From contig CP082845.1 in the NCBI GenBank assembly GCA_019930625.1, positions 1 through 58,137 of the forward strand: 58,137 nucleotides of DNA, read 5' to 3'. The DNA comes from Nocardia asteroides. GTDB lineage: Bacteria; Actinomycetota; Actinomycetes; Mycobacteriales; Mycobacteriaceae. The notes below the pieces were generated by a model. That model had not been told where the DNA came from and searched no databases. It was given only the letters and a program-made list of their open reading frames with translations. The translations under genes were made by a program, and so were the position numbers. This document shows, in pieces, positions 5,257 through 36,484 of this stretch (within the stretch, counting starts at the first letter, position 1; each line of letters begins with the position of its first letter).

Positions 5257-5601
5257 TCAGTCGAGGTAGCGCCAGTGGATCCGGGTGACGACCGTGTCCG
5301 GGGTGCAGCCGCTGTGGCTGCGGCAGAAGAACTCCACAAACGCCTCCGGAGTCATGTCCGGAAACCCTTCGGCCTCGACATCCTCGGGGGAGATGAGGGC
5401 CAGGCGCTCGCGGCGGACGTCGAGGACTTCGACGTCGACGATGCGGACCAGCGGCTCGCCGGGCTTGCGGCCCATGACCTTGCGGCACAGGGTCAGCCGG
5501 GTACCGGGGGTGAGGTGCAGCCAGCCCATGCGGCGGGTGACGGTCTTGCGGCGCTCGCGTACTGCGTCTTCGGTCAGCGACACCGACATCAGCCTCGGCA
5601 T
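5257..5601 (-). CDS. ASCH-domain protein
   Basis: This 114-aa protein has the ASCH/PUA-like pattern. An N-terminal MSVSLTEDAVRERRKTVTRRMGW is followed by a strand with GTRLTLCRKVMG, the segment IVDVEVLDVRRERLALISPEDVEAEGF, and a C-terminal HWRYLD. ASCH proteins bind RNA or modified nucleic acid bases, and some act as hydrolases of modified nucleosides. It overlaps the DUF5131 gene by 13 bases and closes a four-gene cassette. This placement suggests it acts on, or reads, bases made by the upstream methyltransferases. That link is an inference. Confidence 0.75.
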   Translation of the reverse strand: MPRLMSVSLTEDAVRERRKTVTRRMGWLHLTPGTRLTLCRKVMGRKPGEPLVRIVDVEVLDVRRERLALISPEDVEAEGFPDMTPEAFVEFFCRSHSGCTPDTVVTRIHWRYLD

Positions 5602-6446
5602 GAGCTGCTCCTGCTCGTAGGGAATTCGTTCCAGATCCGGCCGTCGAGTTCACGGCCGGCCGACTTCGGGGTGCGCCCGCCCCACTGCTTGAAGAAGAAC
5701 GCCGTCCCGGCCGCCACGCACTGGTCACGCAGGTCGCGTACCCAGTCCGCGTGCATCGGCCGCGCCTTCGGTCCGGACTCGCCGCCGACGATGACCCAGT
5801 CGATCTCCGGCGTGGGTCGCCAGTCGGCGCATTCGCCGCCGCAGGCGCATTCGAACCGGTCCGCGTCGTCAGGCCAGCGGCAACCGCAGCCGCCGGGGCA
5901 GGTGCGGGTGAACAGGAACCGGTCGAGGTCGATCGGCCCGAGTAGCGGCTCCAGCGACAGGAACCGCACCGCGGCGGGTGTGGCGAGCAGGTCGGTGATG
6001 CGGTGGGTGACCGCGCCGTTCTCGACGCTGGTGCCCAGCCACAGGTTCGGCGGGAACACCAGACCGCGTTCGGCCAGCCGCCGCGCCCGCGACGGGCGTT
6101 TGGTCAGCACCTGATAGGTGTGCTGCGGGGTGGCGGCGATGACGTCGAGCACCGCACGGACGAAGTCCTCGCTGACTCGGGCATGGAACAGATCCGACAT
6201 GGAGTTCACGAACACCATCCGCGGGTCGCGCCACCGGTAGGGGATCTGCAGGGCGTCGGGGTGTTCGGTGACGGCGAATCCGGGCCCGGAAGTGCGGGGG
6301 TCGCCGTCGTGCTGGTACTTCGCCGAGCCCATCGACTTCAGCCTGCGTGCCATGGTGAGGGCGTAGCAGTGGTCGCAGCCAGCACTGATGCGGTCGCAGC
6401 CGGTGACGGGGTTCCAGGTGGTGTCGGTCCATTCGATCCCGGTCAT
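5589..6446 (-). CDS. DUF5131 three-Cys-motif protein (phage Gp37/Gp68 family)
   Basis: This 285-aa protein starts at the ATG that overlaps the Dam stop (ATGA). It opens with IEWTDTTWNPVTGC and carries the three-Cys cluster Cys17, Cys24, Cys27 (GCDRISAGCDHCYA), then VLTKRP, LWLGTSVEN and LSLEPLLG. These are signatures of the Gp37/Gp68 (DUF5131) family, a probable radical-SAM-type TIM barrel. An inserted Cys-rich loop between LFTRTC and ECADW has at least six cysteines and may bind a second metal. The reaction is unknown. The family is often found beside methyltransferases in phages and mobile elements, as here. Confidence 0.85.
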   Translation of the reverse strand: MTGIEWTDTTWNPVTGCDRISAGCDHCYALTMARRLKSMGSAKYQHDGDPRTSGPGFAVTEHPDALQIPYRWRDPRMVFVNSMSDLFHARVSEDFVRAVLDVIAATPQHTYQVLTKRPSRARRLAERGLVFPPNLWLGTSVENGAVTHRITDLLATPAAVRFLSLEPLLGPIDLDRFLFTRTCPGGCGCRWPDDADRFECACGGECADWRPTPEIDWVIVGGESGPKARPMHADWVRDLRDQCVAAGTAFFFKQWGGRTPKSAGRELDGRIWNEFPTSRSSSCRG

Positions 6447-6952
6447 GCGGTGATCGTCCTTTCGATTCGCTCGCACCCGCTCAGGGGCACGTATTTGCCG
6501 TGCAGACCGGCGGTCTGCAGGAGTTCGGCGTCGTGCTGGCCGTAGGCGACCAGGCACGACGGTGCCCCGGCGTTGCCGATGGCGCGGGAGCCGTCGGGGA
6601 GGTGGAAATGCAGCCGCCCGTAGAGGAACAGCACCGCTGTTGCCCGCTCCCACACGTGCCGGATGAACCAGCGGGTCTCGGTGCGGGCGAACGTGATCGC
6701 GGTGCCGTGGCCGTGCTCGGCGAGTTTGTCCAGCCAGCGCCCGAGGTTGGAGTACGGCGGATTCAGCCAGACCCGGCCTGCCCAGTCGGCGGCCAGGCCG
6801 TCTTCAGGCGGGGCGATGTGTGTGCGGGCGGTGTCCCACGGCCGCGGGTCGGCCGCACACGGATCCAGGTCGAAGACACCGAGCGCAGCGATCAGACCGG
6901 GCGGGGTCAGCCAGATGTTCGACCCCGCCCTCGCCGAGTGCGGCCCGCTCAC
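6443..6952 (-). CDS. DNA N6-adenine methyltransferase (phage Dam family)
   Basis: This 169-aa protein is of the short phage Dam type. The GTG at 6952 overlaps the stop of the cytosine methyltransferase gene (GTGA), which fixes the start. The N-terminus SNIWLTPPGLI, then FDLDPCAAD, and the catalytic NPPYSN (residues 64-69) match the family's SAM and active-site motifs. GRWLDKLAEHGHGTAITFARTETRWF follows. It transfers methyl groups to adenine in DNA; the recognised site cannot be read from sequence. It has no cognate endonuclease nearby, so it is an orphan modification enzyme. Confidence 0.88.
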   Translation of the reverse strand: MSGPHSARAGSNIWLTPPGLIAALGVFDLDPCAADPRPWDTARTHIAPPEDGLAADWAGRVWLNPPYSNLGRWLDKLAEHGHGTAITFARTETRWFIRHVWERATAVLFLYGRLHFHLPDGSRAIGNAGAPSCLVAYGQHDAELLQTAGLHGKYVPLSGCERIERTITA

Positions 6953-8517
6953 GCCACCGACCTTTCGATGTCCTCGCCGGTGATCGCTTCGACCAGGGCG
7001 CAGCCGATGACTTCGGATGCGGCGGGGGTGACGGCGTTGCCGTAGCCGCGGGCCTGGGTGCGCTTGTCGCCCAACGCCTTGAAAGTGGCCGGGAACGCCA
7101 TCCCGGCCCGGATCTCGACCGGTTCGAGCATCCGGAACGTGCACTGTTCGAGCAGCTGTTCGCGGTCGGCGCCCAGCAGCCCGAACCGGTCGCGGGTGGT
7201 CAGGGTGCCCATCGGCTCGCCGACCGGGTGCGCGCGGCCGGTGCGGTAGTAAGGCACCAGCAGATGCCGCACGTCGTCCGGCGGCTGCACCAGGCCGTGG
7301 TGAAACCCGGACGCGGCGAAGGTCGCAAGCGGTTCGGTGACCGCCCGCGCGGACTTCTTCGACCCGCCGCCGCGCAGCTCGGCGATGAACGGCGGGATCG
7401 CCACCGCCAGCTCGCGGCGGCAGGTCTGCGTCGGCAACGGCTGCCCCGCGGTGTTGGCGGTCAGGGCGGCGCGGCCGCTGGTCTGCACCACCAGCGGCGG
7501 CACCACCACCGCGTCGGTTTCGCGGGTGGTGCGCGCGGGCATCGGCGCATTCAGGCTGGTCGCCTCGGTGCGCCAGGTCCCGCCGGCCGGGGTGAGCATC
7601 GGTGCGCCCGCGAACTTCTCCAGCCCGATCCGGATCCGCTCCAGGGTGTTGTCCGCGAGGGGTTCGTCGCGGTCGGCGATCTTCGCCCCGGGCGGCAGTG
7701 TCCAGTCGATCGCGACCGCCGCCGGTGTCGTGATCGGCTCCACGAGCGCGAACCCGCACGCTTTCGACGGGCACCGGTAGACGTACTGGCCGGACCGTAT
7801 GCCGTAGCGGCCCATGTCGACGCCGGGGCGTTTCCACACCTGCAATGCGTCCACCACGCGATCACAGCTGGAGCACCAGGCTTTCGGCCGCAGCCACTTG
7901 TCCCAATCCGGCTGGCGACCGAGGGCTTTCCACCAGTAGGCGAGATACAGCCGGTCGCGCGACTGCGGGACCGGCAGGCACCGCCGTGGCAGCACGTGCG
8001 CGGAGTTCAGCGCGATGAGGCGCGTTTCGTAGCCGATCTCCTCGATCTCCCCGACCCAGCGGCGCCAGTCGTCCCAGCGGCGGCACTGGATGACGTTCTC
8101 CATCGCCCCGGCCAACACCGGTTTGCCGCGGGCGGCCATCGCCCGCAGATAGCGTGGGATCTGCTCCACCAGCGCCCGCGACCGCGCCGCCGCCGGGTCC
8201 TCCACCACGCCGAGTTCCTCGTCGAACATGCTGTATTGGTTGGACTGGTCGAAATAGCGTTTGACGCCCGCGGCGTCGGTCCAGGCCGGGCACGCCGGGC
8301 TCGCCCAGAACAACTCCGTCGAGGGCAGATCCTCCAGCACGATGTCCTTCACATCCCCCGGCGGAAGATGCTCCGCGCCGGGGAAGTTCAGCTCGTGCAC
8401 CGCCACCGCGACCGGGTTGTGGTTGGCGGCCAGGCGCAGCTCGATCCCGGGAACCTGCTCCCAGCCCAGCGAATCCCCACCCCAGCCCGCGAAATACACC
8501 GTCGACTGCAACGACAT
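6949..8517 (-). CDS. C5-cytosine DNA methyltransferase
   Basis: This is a 522-aa enzyme starting at ATG 8517, preceded by AAGGGGA. SAM-binding motif I is YFAGWGGDSLG. ENV (residues 140-142), QSRDR (185-189) and the C-terminal GNAVTPAASEVIG are all present. The catalytic loop reads SPACPAW with Cys76, so the usual Pro-Cys-Gln is Ala-Cys-Pro. The long target-recognition part includes a CSSC...CPSKAC zinc-like knuckle (about residues 219-265) and several phrases of the PTxTxR type found in phage enzymes. It is the first gene of the four-gene cassette and likely methylates a cytosine in plasmid or host DNA. Confidence 0.88.
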   Translation of the reverse strand: MSLQSTVYFAGWGGDSLGWEQVPGIELRLAANHNPVAVAVHELNFPGAEHLPPGDVKDIVLEDLPSTELFWASPACPAWTDAAGVKRYFDQSNQYSMFDEELGVVEDPAAARSRALVEQIPRYLRAMAARGKPVLAGAMENVIQCRRWDDWRRWVGEIEEIGYETRLIALNSAHVLPRRCLPVPQSRDRLYLAYWWKALGRQPDWDKWLRPKAWCSSCDRVVDALQVWKRPGVDMGRYGIRSGQYVYRCPSKACGFALVEPITTPAAVAIDWTLPPGAKIADRDEPLADNTLERIRIGLEKFAGAPMLTPAGGTWRTEATSLNAPMPARTTRETDAVVVPPLVVQTSGRAALTANTAGQPLPTQTCRRELAVAIPPFIAELRGGGSKKSARAVTEPLATFAASGFHHGLVQPPDDVRHLLVPYYRTGRAHPVGEPMGTLTTRDRFGLLGADREQLLEQCTFRMLEPVEIRAGMAFPATFKALGDKRTQARGYGNAVTPAASEVIGCALVEAITGEDIERSVA

Positions 8518-8583: not shown

Positions 8584-8607
8584 CAACTATGTTGGCTAAC
8601 AAAGTTG
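8584..8607. promoter_or_regulatory. operator-like palindrome between methyltransferase and HTH genes
   Basis: The arms CAACTATGTT and AACAAAGTTG flank GGCT and are inverted repeats with one mismatch. Related pieces (GGCCAACTA near 8544, GTTGGA near 8576) lie closer to the methyltransferase start. The site ends 15 bases before the HTH gene and sits in the shared promoter region, so autoregulation by the small HTH protein is likely. Confidence 0.5.
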
Positions 8608-8622
8608 TGGCATGCTGGCCCC

Positions 8623-8823
8623 ATGACCGAAGGGACTGATCATGGGGCCGCGATCCGCGCCGCCCGTGCGGCCTTTGACGAGGCTCGCGCCAAGCTGTTC
8701 GCCGCGATCCGCGCCGCCCTCGATGACGGCGTGGGGCCGAACGCGATCGCCCGTGAAAGTCAGTTCAGCCGCGAGTACATCGCCCGGATACGGGACGGCA
8801 AGGGGCCGAAGCACGCCCAGTAG
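8623..8823 (+). CDS. small helix-turn-helix protein
   Basis: This 66-aa protein has an N-terminal amphipathic helix (IRAARAAFDEARAKLFAAIRAALDDG) and a C-terminal helix-turn-helix, VGPNAIARESQFSREYIARIRDG. The ATG at 8623 is preferred to one at 8611. The gene is divergent from the methyltransferase cassette and the palindrome at 8584-8607 lies at its promoter. It is likely the local repressor or activator of both genes. Proteins of this short type are common in actinobacterial plasmids and phages. Confidence 0.7.
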   Translation: MTEGTDHGAAIRAARAAFDEARAKLFAAIRAALDDGVGPNAIARESQFSREYIARIRDGKGPKHAQ

Positions 8824-10127: not shown

Positions 10128-11426
10128 CTATCGGTTTCGGAATTTTCGTAGCTGTCGCGGGCGGGGTGTGAAGTAGGGGCGTTCGCTGGCTGACCAGGGT
10201 CGTGGTGGAGGGTCTTGTCGTGGTTGCGGGGGTGGCCAGGGTGCTGGTTCGGTGGCGTCGGTGAGGTAGTCCTGCGGTGCGGGTTGGGGGCGGTGGTAGG
10301 CGAGACGTGCTGTTATGGGCTGGGTTTCGCGGGCGGTGTGTTCTTGACGGGTGAGGCTGACGGTGGCGGTGGCTCTGATCGCGGTCTCGAACAGGGTGTT
10401 GGGTTCGGCCCATTGGCGGGTGATGACGGGGGCGAGGCTGCGGTGGTGGAGCATGGCGTCGCCGCCGCAGCGGTGTTGGGCGAACCAGGCGGCGCTGGTG
10501 AGTTGGGCGTCCTCGTTGCGGGCCTGGGGTTTCCGGTAGCTGGGTCCGCCGTAGGTGCGTTGGCTGCGGTAGTCGTGGATGGGGCGGCTCGGTGGCCGCC
10601 AGCAGTCCTGGTCGATCCAGTGCGCGATCGCGTCGCGGGCGATCTTCGGCTGGTAGTCGGGTCGCCCGAGTCGCCGCCCGATCTCGGTGGTGAAGCGTTG
10701 TTGCATGTCCGGGTCGCCTGCTGCCAGGCGCCGCCAGCGCAGTGTGCCGAGGATTTCGGCGAGGTCGACCGCTTCGGGGTAGGTCGCGGCGAACAACTTC
10801 GACGGGGTGAAGGTGCCCAGTTCGCTGCCTGCCGGGATGAGCTGCTGTGCCCGCTTGTCCCAGTGGTGTCGTGCGTCGCCGCGGGGTGGTGGTTCTCGTT
10901 CGCTCCAGCGGTGGGCGCAGATGAGGAATCCGGTGAGGACCGCGTCGAAGGTCGCGGCCGGTCCGAGGCGACGCAGCAGTCGCAGGTGGGATCGTTGGGC
11001 GGCAACGACTTCCGGCAGCCGACCGAGGTCGGGCTGCTGGAACCCGGTCAGGTCGGGTGGGCCGATCCAGATGCGGTGGCGTAGGCAGAGCATGTGGTGG
11101 TGGCCCAGCAGTTGCAGGGGCGGGCCGGGGTGGGTGGCGGCGCAGCGGTGGCAGCCGTGCTGGGGTTCGTGGCGCAGGGCGAGCCAGTCGGGTTCGGGGT
11201 CGTGGAGTTCGATGATCGCGCGGGCCAGGCGGTGGCGTGGTTGGTCGACGACGGCGGCGTAGCGGTCGGGGTCGAGTCGCCGGGTGCTGGTGCCGTCGCG
11301 GGCTCGGCTGACCTGGGTCCAGAGTTCGGGCAACGGCATCTGGTGCAGGGTCGCGAGCCGGGTGAGGTAGGAGACGGCGATCTCGTTGGTGGCGGGCCGG
11401 ATTCGGATCGGCAGCCGTGAGCCCAT
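10128..11426 (-). CDS. tniQ: TniQ/TnsD-family target-selection protein
   Basis: This is a 432-aa TniQ-family protein. The N-terminus LPIRIRPATNEIAVSYLTRLA matches the family opening. A zinc motif Cys92-x2-Cys95...Cys114-x2-His117 follows, and the C-terminal part is Arg/Trp/Pro-rich. Its ATG overlaps the tniB stop by one base (TGATG). TniQ/TnsD proteins bind the target or an adaptor and recruit the AAA+ regulator. This is a long TniQ with its own C-terminal region, so it may bind DNA directly. The insertion site upstream of traA has no obvious attachment gene. Confidence 0.88.
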   Translation of the reverse strand: MGSRLPIRIRPATNEIAVSYLTRLATLHQMPLPELWTQVSRARDGTSTRRLDPDRYAAVVDQPRHRLARAIIELHDPEPDWLALRHEPQHGCHRCAATHPGPPLQLLGHHHMLCLRHRIWIGPPDLTGFQQPDLGRLPEVVAAQRSHLRLLRRLGPAATFDAVLTGFLICAHRWSEREPPPRGDARHHWDKRAQQLIPAGSELGTFTPSKLFAATYPEAVDLAEILGTLRWRRLAAGDPDMQQRFTTEIGRRLGRPDYQPKIARDAIAHWIDQDCWRPPSRPIHDYRSQRTYGGPSYRKPQARNEDAQLTSAAWFAQHRCGGDAMLHHRSLAPVITRQWAEPNTLFETAIRATATVSLTRQEHTARETQPITARLAYHRPQPAPQDYLTDATEPAPWPPPQPRQDPPPRPWSASERPYFTPRPRQLRKFRNR

Positions 11427-12496
11427 CAGGCGCTCGCCTCGCCGCGACCGGACTTCGGGCGGCGTCGGGGTGGTTCGCTGCGGGTGGCGGCGTAGTCGAC
11501 GGGGATCTCGTCGAGCAGGTCCCGGGTGATCTTCTCGCTGCCGTCGTCGATGGCGAGGATGGCCGCGCCGCGGATCAGTTGGGACAGGGTGCCGATCATG
11601 CCGCCGGTGCGTTGGTAGAGGTATTCGGCCAGCCCGACCAGGGTGCCGGGTTTGTGCCGGTCCAACTCCAGCATGTTCTCGAGGGAGGCGACCAGGGCGC
11701 GCCAGGTGTCGCGTTGGTCGCTGGTGCCGTAGGCGAAGGCGGTCGAGGCGATGAGGGTGAACCGTCCGGCGATCTGGCGTCCGCGGACCCCGGCGAACAA
11801 GCCTTGGGCTTCGACCTCGATCCCGGCGTAGGCGAAGGTCGCGGGCAGGCGTTCGGCGAAGTACTTGAGCTGGTCGGAGACCTCGGCTCCCGATCGGGTG
11901 GCCAGGTTCAGGTTGTGGATCTCATCGACCAGCACCAGCTCGACGTTGGTGCGGGCGGCGGTGGCGCAGACGGCGTTGACGATGTCGGGCATGTTCGCGC
12001 GGCTGCCGAACTCCAGCCCGAAGAACCGCGCGAACTCGACCGCCAGCATCCGAGCGGTCGCCGCCGGTGGGACGGTGACATAGACGACCGGGATCCGGTT
12101 GTGCCCGGCCGGGCCGAGATGGCGTTTGCGGGTCGCGCGTTCGTGGGTCCGGCCGAGCTGGGTCAGGGCGGTGGTCTTGCCGGTGCCCGAGGCTCCCGAC
12201 AGGATCAACCCGCGCCGCGCGGAGACCTGACCGCGGTTGAGCTGGATCAGCATCCGGCCGGTGCGCAGCACTTGCCGGATGGTCGGGGTGTTCACCAGCG
12301 GCAGTTGCCCGTGGTAGTCACGGCGCAGTTCGGCGATCGCGGCCTTGTGCCGCGGCGAGAGGGGCGTGGCCGCAGCCGGCTCCGAGGGTGTCGGGGGTTC
12401 GGGGTCGAACTCGACGAATCGTCGCCAGCCTTCCTTGGTCGTCAACGGTTCATCGGCGGGCAGAGCGTCGATGTCCTGGCCGTTCCGGCTGCTCAT
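11426..12496 (-). CDS. tniB: TniB/TnsC-family AAA+ transposition regulator
   Basis: This 356-aa ATPase carries Walker A GASGTGKTT (residues 101-109) and Walker B VELVLVDEIH (185-194), and the TniB-type HNLN that follows. ATG 12496 overlaps the tniA stop (ATGA) and is preferred over ATG 12502. TniB/TnsC proteins form ATP-dependent filaments on target DNA and connect the target selector to the transposase. The gene lies between tniA and tniQ in a tightly coupled operon, the canonical order for this group. Confidence 0.92.
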   Translation of the reverse strand: MSSRNGQDIDALPADEPLTTKEGWRRFVEFDPEPPTPSEPAAATPLSPRHKAAIAELRRDYHGQLPLVNTPTIRQVLRTGRMLIQLNRGQVSARRGLILSGASGTGKTTALTQLGRTHERATRKRHLGPAGHNRIPVVYVTVPPAATARMLAVEFARFFGLEFGSRANMPDIVNAVCATAARTNVELVLVDEIHNLNLATRSGAEVSDQLKYFAERLPATFAYAGIEVEAQGLFAGVRGRQIAGRFTLIASTAFAYGTSDQRDTWRALVASLENMLELDRHKPGTLVGLAEYLYQRTGGMIGTLSQLIRGAAILAIDDGSEKITRDLLDEIPVDYAATRSEPPRRRPKSGRGEASA

Positions 12497-14514
12497 ATCC
12501 ATCTTTCTGCTTCGGCGTCGGCGTCGAAGACCCCGAACGCGACGACATCGGCGACGGTTTCGGATCGCCGGACCGGGTCCGTGCCCGGTGGTTCGGCGGT
12601 GTCGGGGATCGGCCGTGAGGCTCGATCCGTGGTCGCGGCCCGGGTGCGGGCGGCGATTCTGCGGCTGGCGGTGTCGGGGCCGTGTTCGGCGCGGGTCAGC
12701 AATGCGTCCAGGGCGAGGGCGATTTCGGTTTCGGTGACCTCGCGCCCGGATTCGGCGACCAACCGGCGGGCGTGGCGCCAGGTGAAGTCCGCGAACGGTG
12801 CGGCGACCATCGGCAGATGCGTCCAGGGCGCGGTGATCCAGCCGCCGTCGAGGTGGTTGCGGACGAACACCCGCGACAGGTCGTAAGGGTCGTAGTGGAT
12901 CTCCCACAACCCTCGCTTGCTCGTGAGCCCGGACGGTTGACGCCGGTAGTGGCCGAGTTCGGGGCAGTCGTAGATCCTGTTGTCGACGCGGATGCCGTAG
13001 TCGTTGATCTGGCGCCACTTCACCGGCAGCAGCTCCAGATAGTCCTGCCCCGACAACGTCAGCGGCAGATAGCCCGCCGCCGCGACCAGCGCCGCGTACT
13101 TCTCGTTCGGCGTCAGCTTCCGCCGCGGCGCGCCGGGATCGCGCAACGCGTCATGGCCGCGGTGCTGCCAGCCGACGATCACCCACTCGTCGAACAGGTC
13201 CTGCAACTCTCCGATGGTCCAGGCCGCTTCGACTCCCCGCCCGCGCAGGGTCGGGTTCGCTCCCTTGAACCCCGCGACGTGTTGGGCGAACAAGGTTTTG
13301 ATCGCCGAGAACGTCGCCTCGACCACGGCCTTGTCGGTCGGGGTGTCCTTGCGGGCGGGCTGGACCGAGATCCCCAGCCGATCACAGGCCCGGTCGAAGA
13401 CCTCCGAGACGAACACCCGGCCGTGATCGATCACCACCTGATCCGGGACGATCACCGGCCGCGCCGCCGCCTCCCGCATCCGTGCGTCGACCGCCAGCAG
13501 CCGGTCGTGCGGCAGCACCGACGCCGACATCCGCAAGGCCGACGCCCAGCCCGGCCGCATCGGCTCGGGGACGGTCATCCTCGCCAGCAGCAGCGAGGCG
13601 TCGACCGCTTTCGTCCCGACCGGGCGCAGCACCGCCGCGCAGATGCTGCGGGTCGCGACGTCGACCGCGATCGTCAGATCGGCGCGGACCGGGACACCGT
13701 CCTCGGCCAGCACCATCACATCGATCGGTGTCGAGTCGATCTGGACCTGCTCGCCAGGGCGCATCGCGAAGGTCGGGGTGAACATTGCCTGCGGCCGGTT
13801 GGCGAGCTGGCGGCGGGTGACCGCCGAACCGAAACTGTGCCGCCCGACCGACAACCGATCGATGAGCGCATAGAACGCGGTCTTGCCCGGCAACGCCACC
13901 ACGCCCGGACCGTGGAGTTCCTCCACTCGCTTGCCCACCCGGCGCATCAACCGCGACCGCGTCCCCGTCGACTGCCCGGTCTCGGCATCCAGAACCTCCC
14001 GGATCACCTCCACCAACCGAGGATCCGCGCGACCGGCGATGTCGAAAGTCCGGGTCACCCGCTGATCGACCAGCCCCCACAACCCCTGCGCGGCGAACCG
14101 GGCTCGTTTGCCCTCGATCGTGCGGTAGCCGACGCCCAACTCCGCAGCCTTCGCCCGCTGCCGCTGCGCCAGCGATGTCACCGCCGGGTCGTAACCATCC
14201 CGCGGCGCCTGGGCGTCGGGCCGCAGTCCGGTCTCGACCTCCATCAGATGCTCTCGCCACCACTGCGCGGCGGCGAGCGCCTCCGCGGGCAACGCGTCGA
14301 GCAGACCGTGCGGCTCCACCGCCGCCACCGGCTCGCCGCCGATCACCTGGAAGTCCGACGCGCCCATCAGATAGCTGGCGAGCAGCACTTGCTCGCTGCC
14401 CGCATCCGAGCGCAGCCGCACCGACGTGCCCGACAGGCCGACCACCACGTGCTCGTCACCGTCGAACACCACCCGGTCCCCCACCCGCACCACAGCACGA
14501 CCAGATCCGCTCAC
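12493..14514 (-). CDS. tniA: TniA/TnsB-type DDE transposase
   Basis: This 673-aa transposase starts at the GTG that overlaps the stop of the tnsA-like gene (GTGA). Helix-turn-helix domains lie at about residues 95-240. The RNase H-like catalytic core has Asp260 (QIDSTPIDV), Asp363 (VIDHGRVF) and Glu399 (VVEATFSAIK), the DDE triad. A Mu-transposase-type C-terminal barrel (about 500-580, LELLPVKWRQINDYGIRVDN) follows. It cuts the 3' ends and joins them to the target. It should bind the 19-bp end repeats. Confidence 0.93.
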   Translation of the reverse strand: MSGSGRAVVRVGDRVVFDGDEHVVVGLSGTSVRLRSDAGSEQVLLASYLMGASDFQVIGGEPVAAVEPHGLLDALPAEALAAAQWWREHLMEVETGLRPDAQAPRDGYDPAVTSLAQRQRAKAAELGVGYRTIEGKRARFAAQGLWGLVDQRVTRTFDIAGRADPRLVEVIREVLDAETGQSTGTRSRLMRRVGKRVEELHGPGVVALPGKTAFYALIDRLSVGRHSFGSAVTRRQLANRPQAMFTPTFAMRPGEQVQIDSTPIDVMVLAEDGVPVRADLTIAVDVATRSICAAVLRPVGTKAVDASLLLARMTVPEPMRPGWASALRMSASVLPHDRLLAVDARMREAAARPVIVPDQVVIDHGRVFVSEVFDRACDRLGISVQPARKDTPTDKAVVEATFSAIKTLFAQHVAGFKGANPTLRGRGVEAAWTIGELQDLFDEWVIVGWQHRGHDALRDPGAPRRKLTPNEKYAALVAAAGYLPLTLSGQDYLELLPVKWRQINDYGIRVDNRIYDCPELGHYRRQPSGLTSKRGLWEIHYDPYDLSRVFVRNHLDGGWITAPWTHLPMVAAPFADFTWRHARRLVAESGREVTETEIALALDALLTRAEHGPDTASRRIAARTRAATTDRASRPIPDTAEPPGTDPVRRSETVADVVAFGVFDADAEAERWI

Positions 14515-15317
14515 CGCGCCGCCGAGCATCCGACCGGACCCGCCACGACGACTTCGGAGACCGGCGACAACGGTATCGACAGATCGGCGACCAGCCGCCC
14601 GCACCACAGCAGATGAAACAGCACCGGCAGCACCGCGATCGGATCCCCGGCCGACTCCGCGACCGCCGACAATTCCGCGCCGCCGCCGGACGCCGCCTCG
14701 ACCGCCTCAGCCACCTCCGGGCGATAGTGACGCGGGTGTCGATATCCCGACAACCAGCGAACGTTCGCCATCCTCACCGGATCCGGTGCGCCCGCCACCT
14801 CATACCCCCACCCCACCTCAGCACACGCCCTCCGCGTCGCCGCGAACGCGTCCGCGTCTCGCGGTTGGATCCGATCCAGCGGGCGGCAATCGAGCACCAG
14901 CCCGGAGCCGTCGGCCAACCGAGCGAAGTAATCCGGCGCGTGCGAGCGCCGCTTGCCCTCCGCCGTCTCCCAGAACAACCAGAAGGGTTGCGCCGCGACA
15001 CCGACCACCTCCGGGTCGAAGTCCAACAGCATCAGCCGATCGCGTTCCAGCCACGACTCGTACCCGACATGACAGCCCGTGGTCGAGGTCCACCACCGAC
15101 CCACCAGATTGCGTTGCCCCTTGTACGAGGGAAACCCGCGCACCGGCAGACACGCTTCGAACGGCACACCCCACACCGCCGCCAGCGCCGCACGCTGCTC
15201 ACCGGAATCGACCTCGACGTAGCCGATCTCGAACTCCCCGCCCTCCGACGGACGCGCTGCGCCTCCGCGGGCGGGACTCACACTCCGCACAGGCTCGCAG
15301 TCTGCCCGTGCGGCCAC
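14511..15317 (-). CDS. tnsA: TnsA-like heteromeric transposase endonuclease subunit
   Basis: This protein of up to 268 aa has a TnsA-like endonuclease core. Glu87 lies in YESWLERDRLMLLDFDP, Asp129 in HAPDYFARL, and a strand VLDCRPLDRI follows where TnsA carries its third catalytic position. It would nick the 5' ends so that the element leaves by cut-and-paste rather than forming cointegrates. The start is uncertain: GTG 15317 is the longest, and an in-frame GTG near 15281 is possible. It is the first gene of the operon and reads inward from the right end. Confidence 0.8.
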   Translation of the reverse strand: MAARADCEPVRSVSPARGGAARPSEGGEFEIGYVEVDSGEQRAALAAVWGVPFEACLPVRGFPSYKGQRNLVGRWWTSTTGCHVGYESWLERDRLMLLDFDPEVVGVAAQPFWLFWETAEGKRRSHAPDYFARLADGSGLVLDCRPLDRIQPRDADAFAATRRACAEVGWGYEVAGAPDPVRMANVRWLSGYRHPRHYRPEVAEAVEAASGGGAELSAVAESAGDPIAVLPVLFHLLWCGRLVADLSIPLSPVSEVVVAGPVGCSAAR

Positions 15318-20791: not shown

Positions 20792-22654
20792 TCAGCGGCC
20801 TCGGCCTGTGTCGCGGGTCTGGCTGATGTCAGGCGCGGTGCTGGGCCGCGGGGTCTCCGACGCCGACCCGGTAACGGCTGAACCTGGCTCGGTGCCGAAA
20901 GCACGAGCGGTGGTGCGCCAGGCACGGATGTATTCCTCATCGACCCCGGCCGCGCGCATCTGCTCTGCCTGCTGGTCGATGCGTTCCTGCCGAGATATCC
21001 CCGAAGTCCGAGCCTCGTGTTGCGCGTGCTGGTGTTGGCGCTGGTGCAGTATCTGCAAGGGTTCCAGCGCCCGGTCCCGTAGTTGCTGGGCACGCAACAA
21101 CTCTTGGCGGGCGGTGTGTGCATCAGCGATCGCGACGAGGGTACGCATCAGCTGCTCGACCAGCCGTACCGTCTCCGACGCCGGGTCGTTCCGATCGGCG
21201 TACTTGGCGAGCTGGATGAGGATCACCGCTACCGCCCCCAGCCCCGGCGGCCGCTGTCCCGCTGCGGGTGGGCGCCACCGCAGATGGGCGGGTACCTGTG
21301 CGGAGCGGGTCAGCTCTGTCGCCGCGGCCGCGAACACACCAGGTTTGGATTCCACGCGCCGCGACCAGGCCGCGAACACTCCCGCCGCTCGCCCGGCCGC
21401 ACGCGCCCACTCGCCGTGATTCTCCGGCGGGATGCTCGCGAGATAGTCGTTCCACTTCTGCAGATCCTGGTGCGCCCGCGCCCACAGTTGCGGATCGTCG
21501 AGGGCTTGCGCTTCACGCCCACGCTGCCCACCGCTGCGGCGGCCGGCCTTCCACGTCTTCAACGCCTCCGCCCGCGCCTCCGGGGAGTCGTCCCACTGAT
21601 CCCGCAGTGCAGGCAGCGCCAGATCCTTCGACAACAGACCCCCACTGCACCACGGCCCGGTGTGGGTGAGTTCTTCCAGCGTCAACGGCTTTCCGCCGCT
21701 CGCCAACCGCGCGGCCTCGGTCTTGCGGTCGGCGGCGATGTCGGCGGGGCTGCGCCACCGCACCGCGTACCCGGTCACATCCTCGCCGCCCTTGCTGTAG
21801 CGGGGGCGGATCGAGATCCCCGCGTCCCGCACCCGACGCACGAACTCCGCCTCGGTCGCGCTCGCCGACGCCAACGCCCGCACCTCCAGCCGCAACCGCT
21901 CCCGCTCGGTCAGATCCCCACCAGAGCGGTCACGACGTTCGGTCTCCGCCCGCGAGTTCCCCCGCAGCGCGCCGCCGTCCTCCCGAGACGCCAGCACCTC
22001 CAACCCGTAACGGTGCTCCAGAAGGTTGACCACCTTCTGAGAGCGCGCGTAATCACCCATCGGCCGCCCCGTGACCGGGTCACGCATGAACGTGTCCACC
22101 ACGCTGCCGTCCTCACGGATGAGGGACGCGGCGATGTGGATATGGTCCCCTCCGGAGCGGTCCGCACCCGCGCGGCCGTGGCGCACCGCCACCCACCGCA
22201 CCCCGGCCTGGGTGGGGTCGACGAACCCCATCTCCTTCATGAAGTCTTCCGCGATCGCCTTCCACGTCTCGTCCGACAGATCGCCCTCTTCGGCACGCAA
22301 CGCCAACGAGCAGTGCCACACCGGCGCATCCCGCAACACACCCTTCTCACCCTTCTCCGGGCGCTCGATCACCTCCACCGCACCGGTGTTCGCACTCGCA
22401 GCGCGGGCCCGCATCCGAGCACGGGTGCCGTGCAGCTTGCGCGGCAGATCCATCTCCCGCGCGATCTCCAACGCCACATCGCGCGCAGCCCGGTTGGACT
22501 CCGGGCCGTCGAACCGGCCCAACCATGCCGCGCGCATCACCGACGCCGACCCAGCGACCACGTGCCGATCGGTGTGCTCGTTGGCCTTCCCTGGCCCGAG
22601 CAGATACACCATCAGCCCGCCGAGCTTGGCGCCGCGATTGATGTTCGGATTCAC
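20792..22654 (-). CDS. second relaxase (MobP-like mobilization nuclease)
   Basis: This is a 620-aa relaxase unrelated to TraA. The start MNPNINRGAKLGGLMVYLLG carries Tyr17 as probable nucleophile, followed by GPGKANEHTDRHVV, a typical actinobacterial relaxase opening. The metal site is HIHIAASLI (His171, His173), with WHCSLALR before it. The C-terminal half is helical and Gln/Arg-rich. It would nick its own oriT and covalently hold the 5' end. The mobC-like gene ends 11 bases upstream of its start, so the two form a mobilization operon on the minus strand. Confidence 0.85.
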   Translation of the reverse strand: MNPNINRGAKLGGLMVYLLGPGKANEHTDRHVVAGSASVMRAAWLGRFDGPESNRAARDVALEIAREMDLPRKLHGTRARMRARAASANTGAVEVIERPEKGEKGVLRDAPVWHCSLALRAEEGDLSDETWKAIAEDFMKEMGFVDPTQAGVRWVAVRHGRAGADRSGGDHIHIAASLIREDGSVVDTFMRDPVTGRPMGDYARSQKVVNLLEHRYGLEVLASREDGGALRGNSRAETERRDRSGGDLTERERLRLEVRALASASATEAEFVRRVRDAGISIRPRYSKGGEDVTGYAVRWRSPADIAADRKTEAARLASGGKPLTLEELTHTGPWCSGGLLSKDLALPALRDQWDDSPEARAEALKTWKAGRRSGGQRGREAQALDDPQLWARAHQDLQKWNDYLASIPPENHGEWARAAGRAAGVFAAWSRRVESKPGVFAAAATELTRSAQVPAHLRWRPPAAGQRPPGLGAVAVILIQLAKYADRNDPASETVRLVEQLMRTLVAIADAHTARQELLRAQQLRDRALEPLQILHQRQHQHAQHEARTSGISRQERIDQQAEQMRAAGVDEEYIRAWRTTARAFGTEPGSAVTGSASETPRPSTAPDISQTRDTGRGR

Positions 22655-22664
22655 GACCCCGCCC

Positions 22665-23132
22665 TCACCGTCGCGTCACTTCGCGCGCCAGCTCATCCAG
22701 CCGCGCCGCCCGCGCCGCCAAGTCATCGAGCACCGTGCGCAACTGGGCGAGGGTGTCGTCGATGTCCTCGGCCAAGGTGCCGGTCACGTGCGCGGCGTGC
22801 GCGATCTGATTCAGATTGCCGCCGATCTTCGCCAGGTGCTCCACCCGGACCTCATCCATCGCCCCCGCCGCCGACAACAGCACTCCGGCCAACGTCTTGC
22901 GCTTCGGCCACGGCAGCCACAGCCCCGCCTCATCGGTCTCGCCCGCCGCACGGCCACCGGTCGGGTTCAACGCCGACTCCGCCAGATACCGCGGCACCGT
23001 CATGTTCGCCTCCGCAGCGGCCTCCTCCAGCGCCGCGGCATCAGCCGCCGACACCGTCACCCGGAACCGCTTCGCCCCCTCACCGATGTTCTCCTGCCGC
23101 TTCCGATTTCGCATCCGCGCCACAGACTGCAT
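22665..23132 (-). CDS. mobC: MobC-like relaxosome accessory protein
   Basis: This 155-aa protein (149 aa from the second Met) has an N-terminal ribbon-helix-helix region (KRFRVTVSAADAAALEEAAAEANMTVPRYLAESAL). It also has the MobC signature KIGGNLNQIAHAAH, then a C-terminal helical tail. MobC proteins bind oriT and help the relaxase open the nick site. The frame is open to ATG 23309, which would add about 59 residues of low conservation-like composition; I prefer the shorter form. It is directly upstream of the relaxase gene. Confidence 0.8.
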   Translation of the reverse strand: MQSVARMRNRKRQENIGEGAKRFRVTVSAADAAALEEAAAEANMTVPRYLAESALNPTGGRAAGETDEAGLWLPWPKRKTLAGVLLSAAGAMDEVRVEHLAKIGGNLNQIAHAAHVTGTLAEDIDDTLAQLRTVLDDLAARAARLDELAREVTRR

Positions 23133-23294
23133 CCGCCGCTTCGACGGCACCCCCGCATGGACCGTTGCAGCCTCACCGACGGCCGAATCCGGCCGCTCCG
23201 GCACCTGGGTGACCACCTCGGAATCCGCCTCTCTCTCCTGGCTCAGCGCAGCGACACCCGGCACCCGGGTGGACCTCGCCCCGCGAGGCGACAC

Positions 23295-23315
23295 ACACTT
23301 ATGGAACATAAGTGT
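23295..23315. promoter_or_regulatory. 9-bp perfect inverted repeat upstream of mobC
   Basis: ACACTTATG and CATAAGTGT flank GAA. The site lies about 160 bases upstream of the mobC start and is followed by TAGCTTGCTCCGCC. It could be the relaxase hairpin of this module's oriT or an operator. Confidence 0.4.
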
Positions 23316-23520
23316 TAGCTTGCTCCGCCGGGGCCCGCGCTCTGAGCGTACCGGAGCGCGATCAGCCGGACCAGCATCAAACGCGACCGAACAGGGCCCG
23401 GTAGTGCTCCGCGCTGGACCGCAACGGCCCAACCGGGGAGCGTCGCCGCAGCGGTGGCCGGCGCGGTGACAAACGGTCCCTACGCGGTGCTGGCTGGAGC
23501 GACCGGTAAGGTCCAGACGC

Positions 23521-23559
23521 GACGAGACCCCGGCGGCTTCGCCCCGCCGGGGTCTCGTC
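23521..23559. terminator. strong hairpin terminator
   Basis: A 16-bp perfect stem (GACGAGACCCCGGCGG at 23521-23536 with its complement at 23544-23559) and a 7-base loop lie between the membrane-protein gene and mobC. Confidence 0.7.
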
Positions 23560-23575
23560 TCTGTATTCAGGGAAT

Positions 23576-23600
23576 CGCGTGGAAAGACTCTTTCCACGCG
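23576..23600. promoter_or_regulatory. parS-like palindrome 1
   Basis: This 25-bp palindrome has arms CGCGTGGAAAGA and TCTTTCCACGCG around a central C. Its 17-bp core is shared with sites at 27152-27168 and 28731-28747. It lies just past the 3' end of the membrane-protein gene. Confidence 0.6.
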
Positions 23601-27199: not shown

Positions 27200-27919
27200 A
27201 TGACGACGGCAGACACACGCCGAGTCCTGCGAGTCCTGTTCTCGACGTTGAAGGGCGGCCCCGGTAAGACGACCAGCGCGATCCTGACGGCCGTCGCACT
27301 GGTGCGCCGGGGCCTGAAGGTGGTCGTCATTTGCGCCGATACCCGCACGCGCGGCGCGACCGACTGGGTGCAGGAGGCGGAGCGGGTCGGGGACCGGGTG
27401 CCGTTCCAGCTCGCGATCTGGCATGAGAGCGACGGGCCACTGTCGCAGTACGCCAGGACGACCGAGCGCTCGACTGGCGCCGATGTGGTGATCATCGATA
27501 CCGGCGGCGAACAGCCGGAGAACTTCACCCACGGCTGCCTGTACGCGGACTGGCTGATCTGCCCGGTCGGCCCGTTCCGTGCCGAGCTGCGGCGGCTGGT
27601 GCCGACCTATCAGAGCGCGGTCGCGGTGAACGACTCCGGTTCCCCGCTCGAGGTCAGTGTCCTGCTGACCCGCTGCCCGGCCGCGCACAAGGGCAAGGCC
27701 AAGGAAGCCCGCGAAGTGCTCACCTCGAACCTGGTCAGCGACGCCGGCGAGCTGGATCCCGACACCCCGTACGCGCTGGGCTTGGACGTGATGAACACCG
27801 AGATCTCGCGCGGCGTCGCCTACGACGAGTTCTACGGCCTCATCCCCGAAGACGTCGGCGAGTACGACGACCTGGCGGAGGAGATCCTGGCCCGCCAGCG
27901 CGCAGACGAGGCGGCCTGA
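27200..27919 (+). CDS. parA: ParA-family partition ATPase
   Basis: This is a 239-aa ATPase. The deviant Walker A, KGGPGKTT, is at residues 18-25, followed by VVVICADTRTRGATDW. ADVVIIDTGGE is the Walker B region. The lack of an N-terminal DNA-binding domain makes it a small, type Ib-like ParA. AGGAG lies 9 bases before the ATG. Its stop overlaps the parB start (TGATG). It would form ATP-dependent patches on the nucleoid that move ParB-bound plasmid copies apart. Confidence 0.9.
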   Translation: MTTADTRRVLRVLFSTLKGGPGKTTSAILTAVALVRRGLKVVVICADTRTRGATDWVQEAERVGDRVPFQLAIWHESDGPLSQYARTTERSTGADVVIIDTGGEQPENFTHGCLYADWLICPVGPFRAELRRLVPTYQSAVAVNDSGSPLEVSVLLTRCPAAHKGKAKEAREVLTSNLVSDAGELDPDTPYALGLDVMNTEISRGVAYDEFYGLIPEDVGEYDDLAEEILARQRADEAA

Positions 27920-28899
27920 TGCCCGCGCCGAGCCGACCGAAGAGGAACCGCGGCGGATCCGGTGGTTTACCGTCTACGGCGCACAGCGATACCGCGGAGA
28001 TCGTCTCGGCTGTGCTGACCACCGCGCGAGCCGAGGTCTCGACCAACGGTGCGTCCGCCACTCCCCCGCCGGCCTCCCCGGCGGACGCGCTGCTGGCGGA
28101 GTTCGCGCACAGGCCGGACAACCCGCGGTGGGCGCGTGAGTACGACCCGGAAGCCGATCCGGAGCTGGCGGCCTTCGCCGCGACGGTCGACGAGTTCGGC
28201 ATCCTGCAGGCGGTGACAGTGTGCTCGCGGGAGGCGTGGCTGGAACACCATCCCGGCGACAAGTTCGACGACGAGGTCCGCTTCGTCGTCATCATGGGCA
28301 ACCGCAGGCTCGCCACCGCCCGGCACAAGAAGGTCGCCAGGCTGCCGTTCCACCGCAATGACGCGCTCGCCGATCCGAGGCTGAGCAAGGAAAGCGGGAT
28401 CATCGAGAACTACCACCGCAAGCCCTACGACCCGATCCGTGAGGGCGGCGAGATGGCCGCGGTGCTCGCATTGACCGGCGAGAGTAAGCGGGCCTTCGCC
28501 GAGCGAATGGGAATCTCCCACACCCAGGTGAACCAGCGCCTGCAGCTGCTCGAGTTGATCCCCGAGTTCCAGGGCATGGTGTCGGACCTGGCGATGCCGG
28601 TGCAGAAAGCGCTCAAACTCGCCGTGCTCACCGCTGAGGACCAGCGTGCGCTGCTGGACCTCGGCCAGCCCTACGACCCCGGCTGGCTCATCACCGAGCC
28701 GGAGTCCGGCGCCGAAGCTGACGGCGAGGATGGAAAGAGTCTTTCCACGACTGCGGCAGTGAAGATTCCCAAGAGCAGCACACCCGACGACGTCGCCCAG
28801 GTGCTGCGCGACAAGCTCGACCCAGCTCTTCTCGATGCAGTCCTGAACATCCTTACCGGGGATGCGTCACTGCGCGACTACACCGCACACGCTGACTAG
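27919..28899 (+). CDS. parB: ParB-family partition protein
   Basis: This is a 326-aa protein. The ParB/Srx-type core has VVIMGNRRLATARH (residues 123-136, the nucleotide-binding motif) and IIENYHRKPYDPIREG (161-176). A helix-turn-helix follows (SKRAFAERMGISHTQVNQRLQLLELI, 189-214). A short C-terminal domain ends the protein. It is translationally coupled to parA. A parS-like palindrome (28731-28747) lies inside the 3' part of the gene, and the two others flank the region. This makes ParB the likely binder of these sites. Confidence 0.88.
   Translation: MPAPSRPKRNRGGSGGLPSTAHSDTAEIVSAVLTTARAEVSTNGASATPPPASPADALLAEFAHRPDNPRWAREYDPEADPELAAFAATVDEFGILQAVTVCSREAWLEHHPGDKFDDEVRFVVIMGNRRLATARHKKVARLPFHRNDALADPRLSKESGIIENYHRKPYDPIREGGEMAAVLALTGESKRAFAERMGISHTQVNQRLQLLELIPEFQGMVSDLAMPVQKALKLAVLTAEDQRALLDLGQPYDPGWLITEPESGAEADGEDGKSLSTTAAVKIPKSSTPDDVAQVLRDKLDPALLDAVLNILTGDASLRDYTAHAD
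28731..28747. promoter_or_regulatory. parS-like palindrome 3, inside parB
   Basis: TGGAAAGA-G-TCTTTCCA is identical to the core of the other two sites read on the opposite strand. It lies within the coding sequence for the linker before the ParB C-terminal domain. Confidence 0.6.
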
Positions 28900-32055: not shown

Positions 32056-32868
32056 TTAATGGTTGGCGGCGCGGCTGCGGGCGAGTCGATAGCTGTCGGT
32101 GCCGGTGTGGATGATGGTGCCGCCGTAGGTGAGTCTGTCTACTATTGCGGCGCACAGGCGTGGGTCGGTGAAGGTTTTCGTCCATCCGGAGAAGGCTTCG
32201 TTGGATGCGATGGCGACACTGTTCTTTTCCTCGCGCTCGGTCAATACCTGGAACAGCAGTTCGGCGCCGCGTTTGTCCAACTCCATATAGCCGAGTTCGT
32301 CGATGCATAGAAGGTCGACGCGCCCGTAGCGGTTGATGGTTTTGGCGAGTTGTTTCTCGTCGGCGGCTTCGACGAGCTCGTTGACCAGTTTCGTGGCCAG
32401 GGTGTAGCGGACTCGGTAGCCTTTCTCGGCGGCGGCGGTGCCGAGCGCGATGAGTAGGTGTGATTTGCCGGTGCCGGAGTCGCCGATGAGGCACAGGGGT
32501 TCGCCTTTGCGGATCCAGTCGCCGGTGGCGAGGGTGTGGATGGTGGCGGCGTTGATGGCGGGGTTGGCGTCGAAGTCGAAGTCGCCGAGCCATTTCTGGC
32601 GGGGAAACCCGGCGGCTTTGACTCGGCGCAGGGTGGAGCGCCGGTCGCGGTCGTCGCATTCGGCCAGCAGCAACTCGGCCAGGAACCCCTGGTAGGTGAG
32701 CTGTTCGCGGCCCGCGGCGGTCAACGCTTCGTCCAGGACGGCGCGGATCGTCGGCAGCCGCAGCCGTCGGCAGGCTTGGTCGACGGCCGCTGCGGCGGCT
32801 TCTTCGGTGAGCCCGCGCCGCCGTCGCAGGGTGGTGGTGATCTGGGAGGGCGGGGTGGCTGGACTCAT
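32056..32868 (-). CDS. istB: IstB-family transposition ATPase
   Basis: This is a 270-aa AAA+ protein of the IstB/DnaC type. Walker A is GDSGTGKSH (residues 129-137), Walker B VDLLCIDELGYM (about 172-183), and SNEAFSGW and IVDRLTYGGTII follow. IstB loads onto target DNA and activates the IstA transposase. Its ATG overlaps the istA stop (ATGA). The length is usual for the family and no lesion is visible. Confidence 0.93.
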   Translation of the reverse strand: MSPATPPSQITTTLRRRRGLTEEAAAAAVDQACRRLRLPTIRAVLDEALTAAGREQLTYQGFLAELLLAECDDRDRRSTLRRVKAAGFPRQKWLGDFDFDANPAINAATIHTLATGDWIRKGEPLCLIGDSGTGKSHLLIALGTAAAEKGYRVRYTLATKLVNELVEAADEKQLAKTINRYGRVDLLCIDELGYMELDKRGAELLFQVLTEREEKNSVAIASNEAFSGWTKTFTDPRLCAAIVDRLTYGGTIIHTGTDSYRLARSRAANH

Positions 32869-35650: not shown

Positions 35651-36484
35651 TTAGGTCGTCGCACCGTTGCTGGCGGGGCGATTCTCTGGAACGCGAAGGT
35701 CGTAGTGGAGGCGTAGGGCATCGCCGCTGAAGACGCTGAGGAGGACCCGTACGCGGCGGCCGGTGGCGTCGATGCCGACGCGGGCGTGCTGCCCGACGGG
35801 TGTACCTGGCTGCTGCTCGAGCAGCGCGGCTTCTTCGGGCTCGGGCATCCGGACGGTGATTTCGTCGGAGAACTGAACTTGGCGGAAGCCCAGCGCGCGA
35901 TAGATGCCGCCGGGGTAGACGACGTTCTCGACAGCTCGCAGCGGGGCGATGCCGTCGATCTCCATATTGGCGATATCCAGCGGAGTCCAGGTGTCAGCGA
36001 TCATGGCCAGCTGCTCGGGTACCTGAGGCTTCTGGACGTACCGCAGCCGCCTGCGGCGCAAGAGCAGTGTTCCAGGTCGGCATTGCATATAGCGCGCTAC
36101 TTCTGAGGTAGCGGGCAGCTCCAAAACGCTGTCGACGAGCTGTCGAGTCTCCCATCCTTCCGAGTGAGCGTCGGCCTCCCACTGGTCGATTCGATTGACC
36201 GGGTCGTCGCTGTAGGCACCCAGCTCGAATTTCGTCAGGTGCCAGGTGATGAGGTCGCGACTGCGCACGGTCCGGCCGATTCCTGCGACCGCTGCGGTAA
36301 GCAACCCCTCTTGCTCAAGTCGCCGGATCGCCTCTCGGATCGTTGGACGACTGAAGTCGTACCGCTCCGCGAGATCCAGCTCCGCCGGGATCTTTTCACC
36401 GGGCTGGAGCTGACCTCGGGTGATCTGCTCGCGGAGATCGTCGTAAACGATCTTCCATCTCGGTCGCCTGCTCATGGTCTCCAT
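35651..36484 (-). CDS. GntR/HutC-family transcriptional regulator
   Basis: This is a 277-aa regulator. The N-terminal winged helix-turn-helix (WKIVYDDLREQITRGQLQPGEKIPAELDLAERYDFSRPTIREAIRRLEQEGLL) is split over residues 10-63. A UTRA-type effector domain follows (CRPGTLLLRRRRLRYV, GIYRALGF, GTPVGQHARVGIDATGRRVRVLLSVF). On actinobacterial transfer plasmids such proteins (KorA/KorSA type) repress transfer genes. It is divergent from the long transfer operon, with repeats between them. ATG 36484 or 36475 could be the start. Confidence 0.85.
   Translation of the reverse strand: METMSRRPRWKIVYDDLREQITRGQLQPGEKIPAELDLAERYDFSRPTIREAIRRLEQEGLLTAAVAGIGRTVRSRDLITWHLTKFELGAYSDDPVNRIDQWEADAHSEGWETRQLVDSVLELPATSEVARYMQCRPGTLLLRRRRLRYVQKPQVPEQLAMIADTWTPLDIANMEIDGIAPLRAVENVVYPGGIYRALGFRQVQFSDEITVRMPEPEEAALLEQQPGTPVGQHARVGIDATGRRVRVLLSVFSGDALRLHYDLRVPENRPASNGATT

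Follow-up and report, generated by a model that had tools for sequence, protein, structure and literature searches.

What is the purpose of a plasmid operon in which DNA methyltransferase genes overlap genes for a DUF5131 protein and an ASCH-like protein? The question is raised by a 58,137-base contig of Nocardia asteroides (CP082845.1), referred to here in its entirety as the window. Its minus strand carries, in order, a C5-cytosine DNA methyltransferase gene (C5-MTase; positions 8517-6949), a Dam-type N6-adenine methyltransferase gene (6952-6443), a DUF5131 gene (6446-5589) and an ASCH-like gene (5601-5257). An earlier note, made from the letters alone, had presented these as a four-gene DNA modification cassette in which every junction is a translational overlap. 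The four open reading frames (ORFs) and their junctions were as it had described: GTGA, 4 bp, between C5-MTase and Dam (6949..6952, minus strand); ATGA, 4 bp, between Dam and DUF5131 (6443..6446, minus strand); and 13 bp between DUF5131 and ASCH (5589..5601, minus strand). The genes are probably coupled. Their arrangement in relatives suggests that the functional unit is probably C5-MTase, DUF5131 and ASCH, with Dam an addition in this lineage.

Gene neighborhoods were surveyed in 148 genomes of the genus, neighbors being matches to custom hidden Markov models inside fixed distances, with at most ten C5 candidates scored per genome. DUF5131 matches filled 48 rows, some of them fragments, and two genes were each divided over two rows. 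C5-MTase was present within 2 kb of DUF5131 in 11/48 rows, ASCH in 6/48 and Dam in 1/48, the last being the window itself. Since the C5-MTase gene of an N. farcinica plasmid is present identically in two genomes (G020 and G054), the rows are not all independent. At 30 DUF5131 loci from these genomes, the TcmP gene adjoins DUF5131 in nine cases and C5-MTase in seven, window included; flanks of only about 1.5 kb make the apparent lack of a partner at genus loci weak evidence. Thus, the quartet did not hold up as a single conserved system. The failure of the four genes to travel together, which the earlier note had named among the grounds for abandoning its proposal, was seen for the quartet and not for the C5-DUF5131-ASCH trio in the Nocardia plasmid lineage. 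An ASCH profile (alignment A4) used across the order matched in 2/200 genomes, once in the window's own and once as a 26-residue fragment in another Nocardia.

The junctions themselves recur. With gene starts picked by script, the 13-bp DUF5131/ASCH overlap was found at 5/12 distinct loci, namely the window, NBC_01377 (L002), two loci of Nocardia sp. CY41 (L041, identical to L167, and L072) and G095 (L071). Elsewhere the two genes overlap by 1 bp (pGD21-2, L077, and L258), are separated by gaps (L037, L005, L256, L257) or occur in reversed order (L022). Outside the window, a 4-bp overlap directly joins C5-MTase to DUF5131 at 4/9 distinct loci (NBC_01377, N. farcinica L003, CY41 and G095), the rest being gapped. 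Comparison of the window with its Nocardia relatives gave ratios of nonsynonymous to synonymous change (dN/dS) of 0.18-0.31 for C5-MTase, 0.16-0.28 for DUF5131 and 0.21-0.31 for ASCH, Dam being left out; against the more distant Mycobacterium abscessus locus the values were 0.40 (DUF5131) and 0.13 (ASCH). The three genes therefore look maintained, with nonsynonymous change constrained. Together, the recurrent 13-bp and 4-bp overlaps and this constraint indicate that the arrangement is more than chance. Decay does occur in places: G095 has a split C5-MTase gene, G062 a truncated one and G138 mere remnants. Because relatives keep the 4-bp C5/DUF5131 overlap and, among the genus rows, Dam stands beside DUF5131 only in the window, Dam is likely a later addition, most likely placed between the two genes in the window's lineage with a 4-bp overlap on either side. 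At five viral Dam loci, C5-MTase adjoined in one and DUF5131 in none.

Phages and plasmids often carry orphan methyltransferases, and the operon could accordingly be read as plain anti-restriction: 5-methylcytosine (5mC) and N6-methyladenine (6mA) would protect the plasmid, with DUF5131 and ASCH as unrelated, phage-derived cargo of an early operon. Pieces of the operon do occur apart, as in three C5-Dam pairs lacking DUF5131 within 2 kb (G020:C2, G096:C25 and L366), and on some viral contigs ASCH lies among RecT-like, RuvC-like, WhiB-like and integrase genes, named as read from sequence. Unrelated cargo, however, fits poorly with relatives that keep the exact 4-bp and 13-bp overlaps at 76-89% protein identity, with the clustering of C5-linked DUF5131s on a tree, and with the fact that elsewhere, too, DUF5131 has a partner, TcmP, that looks methyltransferase-like from its sequence. 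We regard the anti-restriction explanation as a real possibility, if a doubtful one.

What, then, could DUF5131 contribute? The 285-residue protein (Gp37/Gp68 family; 5589..6446, minus strand; PF07505, E 5.7e-98) is predicted to be a radical S-adenosylmethionine (SAM) enzyme resembling spore photoproduct lyase (SPL). It has the three cysteines expected of such enzymes, C17-x6-C24-x2-C27 (6366..6398, minus strand), presumed ligands of a [4Fe-4S] cluster; all are invariant in the 76 sequences of alignment A3, and the CX6CX2C spacing was found in 158/160 DUF5131 loci. The predicted model likewise contains the partial (beta/alpha) barrel of radical SAM proteins, and in Foldseek its nearest fold was SPL, followed by other radical SAM enzymes, RlmN and viperin included. 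By sequence, all 76 members are linked to TIGR04471, the model for radical SAM mobile pair protein A, the window protein scoring 43.7 bits, below the curated cut-off of 355. The invariant motif and the nearest folds bear out the view of the earlier note that DUF5131 is a probable radical SAM protein. A PDB sequence search with it returned no match at E 1. Its family is large, with at least 7,999 homologues scored, and no paper using the name DUF5131 was found in the literature searched, subscription papers being outside it; the names 'Gp37Gp68' and 'three-Cys-motif partner' do occur there. Variants of the motif were observed as well: an Enterocloster phage DUF5131 (L081, 3120-3866) has the CX3CX2C spacing usual among radical SAM enzymes, and in those of L117 and L160 an insertion separates the second motif cysteine from the third.

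With SPL as its nearest fold, DUF5131 might be a DNA repair enzyme that, like SPL, undoes photolesions of pyrimidines or damage of a similar kind, its link to methyltransferases being incidental. This is very improbable in our judgment, given the recurrent pairing of DUF5131 with TcmP or C5-MTase, a motif spacing unlike that of SPL, and the absence of any SPL model among the NCBIfam matches of the 76 members at E 1e-3.

The ASCH-fold protein (114 residues; 5257..5601, minus strand) has no Pfam match; its predicted structure, which is YqfB-like, nonetheless upheld the identity given it in the earlier note, the model sharing the fold of a YqfB-type protein (PDB 9kyf) over 99-100 aligned residues. 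Its K19-x2-T22-x-R24 (5530..5547, minus strand), invariant in the 41 sequences of alignment A4, is the probable counterpart of Lys21/Thr24/Arg26 of E. coli YqfB, whose active-site roles are described in one report (PMC6972931). The hhalign comparison paired these motifs in a weak, non-significant alignment (E 0.083, probability 0.7). E78 (5368..5370, minus strand), also invariant in A4, is a possible counterpart of YqfB Glu74, paired by eye and unaligned by hhalign. Thus the protein appears to keep the active-site Lys, Thr and Arg. The PDB sequence search returned a single chance match (E 0.22). According to a further study (PMC9599836), YqfB-type enzymes act on free N4-acetylcytidine (ac4C), nucleic-acid binding having gone undetected. 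This activity would suit a scheme in which DUF5131 and ASCH have tRNA or free derivatives of cytidine as their substrates, as would the presence of RlmN and viperin among the DUF5131 fold neighbors and the label 'RNA methyltransferase' under which two prophage DUF5131s were deposited. Both methyltransferases of the operon are of DNA type, however, and we consider chemistry on RNA or free nucleotides improbable.

The C5-MTase (522 residues; 6949..8517, minus strand) is of phage/plasmid type (PF00145, E 5.9e-12; phrog_116, E 3e-36), and its catalytic motifs look intact. Cys76 (8290..8292, minus strand), in a SPAC variant of the PPC motif and catalytic by family knowledge, is invariant in the 20 sequences of alignment A5 together with E140, R187, R189, G493 and N494; N141, V142 and Q185 are at least 90% conserved, these residues making up the motifs ENV, QxRxR and GN. 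Four cysteines, C215, C218, C249 and C254 (7756..7875, minus strand), each conserved in at least 90% of A5, form a knuckle that may bind zinc. The Dam protein (169 residues; 6443..6952, minus strand; PF05869, E 3.7e-11; phrog_111, E 4.2e-43) has an NPPY motif, read from the sequence, at 6752..6763 on the minus strand. Neither methyltransferase had a match in PDB sequence searches. The earlier note had seen no restriction enzyme in the cassette, and a Pfam scan of 38 window ORFs gave no match to a nuclease or restriction family; this covers part of the ORFs, and a nuclease of a novel family would escape it.

Which partners DUF5131 keeps more widely was read from two sets of loci, genomic and viral, each the best 80 of about 590 confirmed stretches and hence made up of the relatives with the highest scores instead of a random draw. 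The genome loci had, within 3 kb of DUF5131, TcmP in 69 cases, C5-MTase in two, ASCH and Dam in one each, and none of the four in nine; the viral loci had TcmP in 27, C5-MTase in five, Dam in two, ASCH in one, and none of the four in 45. TcmP (TIGR04474) looks like a methyltransferase-type, SAM-dependent protein, and PDB sequence searches with it gave no match. Viral ASCH genes give the reverse view: at 38 loci, one of them without a measurable anchor, DUF5131 was within 3 kb in nine, C5-MTase in two, Dam in one and TcmP in none, and the top co-neighbor was DUF5131 (10/37), tied with a WhiB-like cluster (10/37).

The prevalence of TcmP raises the prospect that the operon is a phage-defense variant of the PADLOC candidates PDC-M30/M41 (TcmP plus DUF5131), with C5-MTase in the role of TcmP. 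The DUF5131 of the window matches PDC-M41B (E 1.8e-96) and PDC-M30B (E 5.9e-92), the scanned TcmP proteins match PDC-M30A and some also M41A, and the 69/80 genome loci are as this prospect would have them. Against it stand the candidate-only status of PDC-M30/M41, the lack of any TcmP (TIGR04474) match in the window's genome, and the occurrence of insert-bearing, C5-linked DUF5131s on phage contigs themselves (L095, L153, L163). In addition, one paper (PMC12409345) reports no evidence of defense for the PADLOC candidates PDC-M63AB and PDC-S04, which are different from PDC-M30/M41. On balance a defense role is unlikely.

The choice of partner follows descent in part. On a quick DUF5131 tree of 202 rows, the C5 label required nine changes (shuffled mean 14.7) and the TcmP label 23 (shuffled mean 67). 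A clade of seven C5-linked rows (SH-aLRT 97), comprising the window, NBC_01377, N. farcinica, G062, G095 and two CY41 loci, sits inside a Nocardia clade of 18 rows (99) with eight C5-linked rows, one ASCH-linked row and nine that lack a partner within mostly short flanks. This pattern indicates that partner choice was inherited for stretches and switched several times. The clades also differ in the segment between strands 5 and 6, which in Nocardia plasmids holds a cysteine-rich insert; in the window it reads CX3CXC..CXCX3C (residues 183-206; 5829..5900, minus strand), in a part of the model where confidence is low. With 12/202 rows outside the measurement, the segment is 25-26 residues long in 107/107 TcmP-linked rows and 40-61 in 13/13 C5-linked rows, eight of the latter having at least four cysteines there. 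The Fisher value for this split, 6e-21, is confounded by shared descent, because an independent-pairs test of insert against TcmP found four supported pairs and had no power. As rows in which no TcmP was detected include both kinds (45 long, 38 short) and that test is powerless, the insert is to be taken as a difference between clades and no proof of a link. Nor is it required in ASCH or C5 contexts, since at viral loci anchored on ASCH or C5-MTase 5/14 measured DUF5131s are short, including a C5-linked one (L350).

We tentatively read the locus, at somewhat less than an even chance, as a DNA-marking operon of phage type, with a C5-MTase in the place of TcmP beside a radical SAM enzyme. In its favor count the recurrent overlaps and low dN/dS values, the presence of C5-MTase and ASCH near DUF5131 in 11/48 and 6/48 genus rows, the C5-linked clade, the SPL-like fold of DUF5131 and its link to TIGR04471, its tied first rank among the neighbors of viral ASCH genes, the YqfB-like fold and invariant K/T/R of the ASCH protein, and the occurrence of a C5-MTase near DUF5131 on M. 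abscessus pGD21-2 and in Rhodobacter phage RcapNL. Its chemistry is inferred throughout. The plasmid would keep these overlapping modification genes for its own protection. Going by their families, C5-MTase would add 5mC and Dam 6mA to DNA, and DUF5131 would partner C5-MTase in the position held elsewhere by TcmP, its commonest partner. By analogy with SPL, it might direct a 5'-deoxyadenosyl radical at a DNA pyrimidine, perhaps methylated cytosine; the ASCH protein would bind or hydrolyse a modified cytosine, in the way that YqfB hydrolyses N4-acylcytosine. The recurrence of the three genes on related plasmids suggests, short of proof, DNA-base chemistry beyond plain methylation, and a hypermodified base, which the earlier note had raised beside a mark-and-read system, would be a plausible product. 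A more specific version is rather unlikely: that there is a second kind of DUF5131, bearing the insert and not found here with TcmP, which uses radical SAM chemistry to convert the 5mC made in DNA by C5-MTase to a new base, the ASCH hydrolase acting as eraser or reader. If true, this would be the first pathway known to us in which DNA cytosine is modified with a radical SAM step. The likelihoods that we attach to the marking operon and to its four rivals are for overlapping statements and need not sum to one.

Several observations weigh against the marking operon. C5-MTase is near DUF5131 in only the five viral and two genome loci counted above, one of the latter weak and beside TcmP; among viral C5 loci (the best 80 of 529), DUF5131 was within 3 kb in 5/80 and ASCH and Dam in none. 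G062 (L037) keeps neither overlap; on pGD21-2, DUF5131 and ASCH overlap by 1 bp and C5-MTase overlaps neither; and several phage loci are gapped. C5-MTase and ASCH occur without DUF5131 (G133), and DUF5131 and ASCH without C5-MTase and in opposite order (G023). On the plasmid of Nocardia NBC_01388, DUF5131 sits between WhiB and TraM genes, and on an N. farcinica plasmid its neighbor is DUF3307. The match to SPL is at fold level only, with 10-11% identity and a best Foldseek E of 2.8e-3, and the cysteine motif is CX6CX2C, not the CX3CX2C that we take to be SPL's own. Finally, KxxTxR is presumably common to ASCH domains at large, and is therefore no proof of hydrolysis.

The predicted fold assigns a likely chemistry to the large DUF5131 family, and the plasmid operon is a small, testable setting for what DUF5131 pairs do. 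Their role is approachable here because the partner's type of reaction, 5mC formation, is known.

Other associations of these families were observed as well. The order of genes is C5-x-x-DUF5131-ASCH on the M. abscessus plasmid pGD21-2, DUF5131-x-ASCH on Gordonia pSMJS1.2 and C5-x-x-DUF5131 in Rhodobacter phage RcapNL. Downstream of DUF5131-ASCH on pGD21-2 (L077, 5966-6921) lie genes for an XF1762 protein, a weak, below-cut-off match to the Mom family, and for DUF1643, a domain that shares a single chain with C5-MTase in the metagenomic protein P0277. Genes for an annotated ASCH protein, a related C5-MTase and DUF4326 overlap on a Streptomyces tendae plasmid (L374, 3073-5491), at best an analogy because that ASCH protein falls outside the present family (E 0.065); DUF4326 comes after DUF5131 in mycobacteriophage Panchino (L080) as well. 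In a prophage (L083, 3989-6102), DUF5131 has a 1-bp overlap with a PAPS-reductase-like gene, a Pfam match under cut-off.

The window is one whole contig of a two-contig, 7.4-Mb Nocardia genome, and the annotated plasmids matching it best are from Nocardia. A MobA/VirD2-type relaxase gene adjoining a MobC/NikA-like ORF (20792-23597, minus strand; Pfam scan), together with ParA-like and ParB-like genes (27200-28899, plus strand; ParB HTH match just under cut-off), mark it as a plasmid. Upstream of the operon and divergent from it, a gene for a 72-residue helix-turn-helix protein (8605..8823, plus strand; phrog_686, E 7.6e-7) may encode a regulator; a promoter scan gave no promoter-like sites. 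Consecutive minus-strand ORFs for TniQ-like (under cut-off), TniB and Mu-transposase-C proteins (10128-14607) form a Tn5053/Tn7-like transposition module. An IS21-type element, with IstB and a transposase with Mu-transpos_C_2, lies at 32056-34547 and a GntR-UTRA regulator gene at 35651-36484, both on the minus strand.

How does the operon compare with known systems? The TcmP and DUF5131 pair (TIGR04474 and PF07505; PDC-M30/M41) has a DUF5131 homologous over its length, with the same cysteine motif, and likewise lies on mobile DNA; here the partner is C5-MTase, joined by ASCH and Dam, and DUF5131 has the insert. Component B of PDC-M30/M41 is present as DUF5131, and the complete system was set aside because the genome has no match to component A. 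With SPL (PDB 4fhc and related), the best structural match, DUF5131 shares a predicted partial barrel and an N-terminal three-cysteine motif; it differs in its low identity (10-11%) and gene context, and membership of that family was set aside on its motif spacing and want of an SPL model match. The YqfB-type ASCH amidohydrolase (PDB 9kyf) shares the fold; of its Thr-Lys-Glu triad plus Arg, the Lys, Thr and Arg appear to be kept and possibly the Glu, whereas YqfB Asp27 and His70 are not evident in the window protein, which has no significant sequence match to YqfB or the PDB. The phage cytosine hypermodification system CmoX/CmoA/CmoY, as set out in PMC12783734, likewise has a C5-MTase homologue beside enzymes that could elaborate the base, with CmoA and an amide ligase where the window has radical SAM and ASCH proteins. 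CmoX has an Arg at the site for carboxy-SAM (Cx-SAM), which is a Lys in the engineered M.MpeI N374K. The window's C5-MTase keeps the motif-X Asn as N494 of its GN motif, judged from alignment A5, and CmoA (TIGR00740) had no match in the window's genome. Taking M.MpeI N374 to be the motif-X Asn, we regard a CmoX-type carboxymethylcytosine route as unlikely, because that Asn is kept and the genome lacks a CmoA match. With no nuclease partner identified, the C5-MTase and Dam resemble the orphan anti-restriction methyltransferases of phages and plasmids; what sets the window apart from them is the overlapping DUF5131 and ASCH genes.

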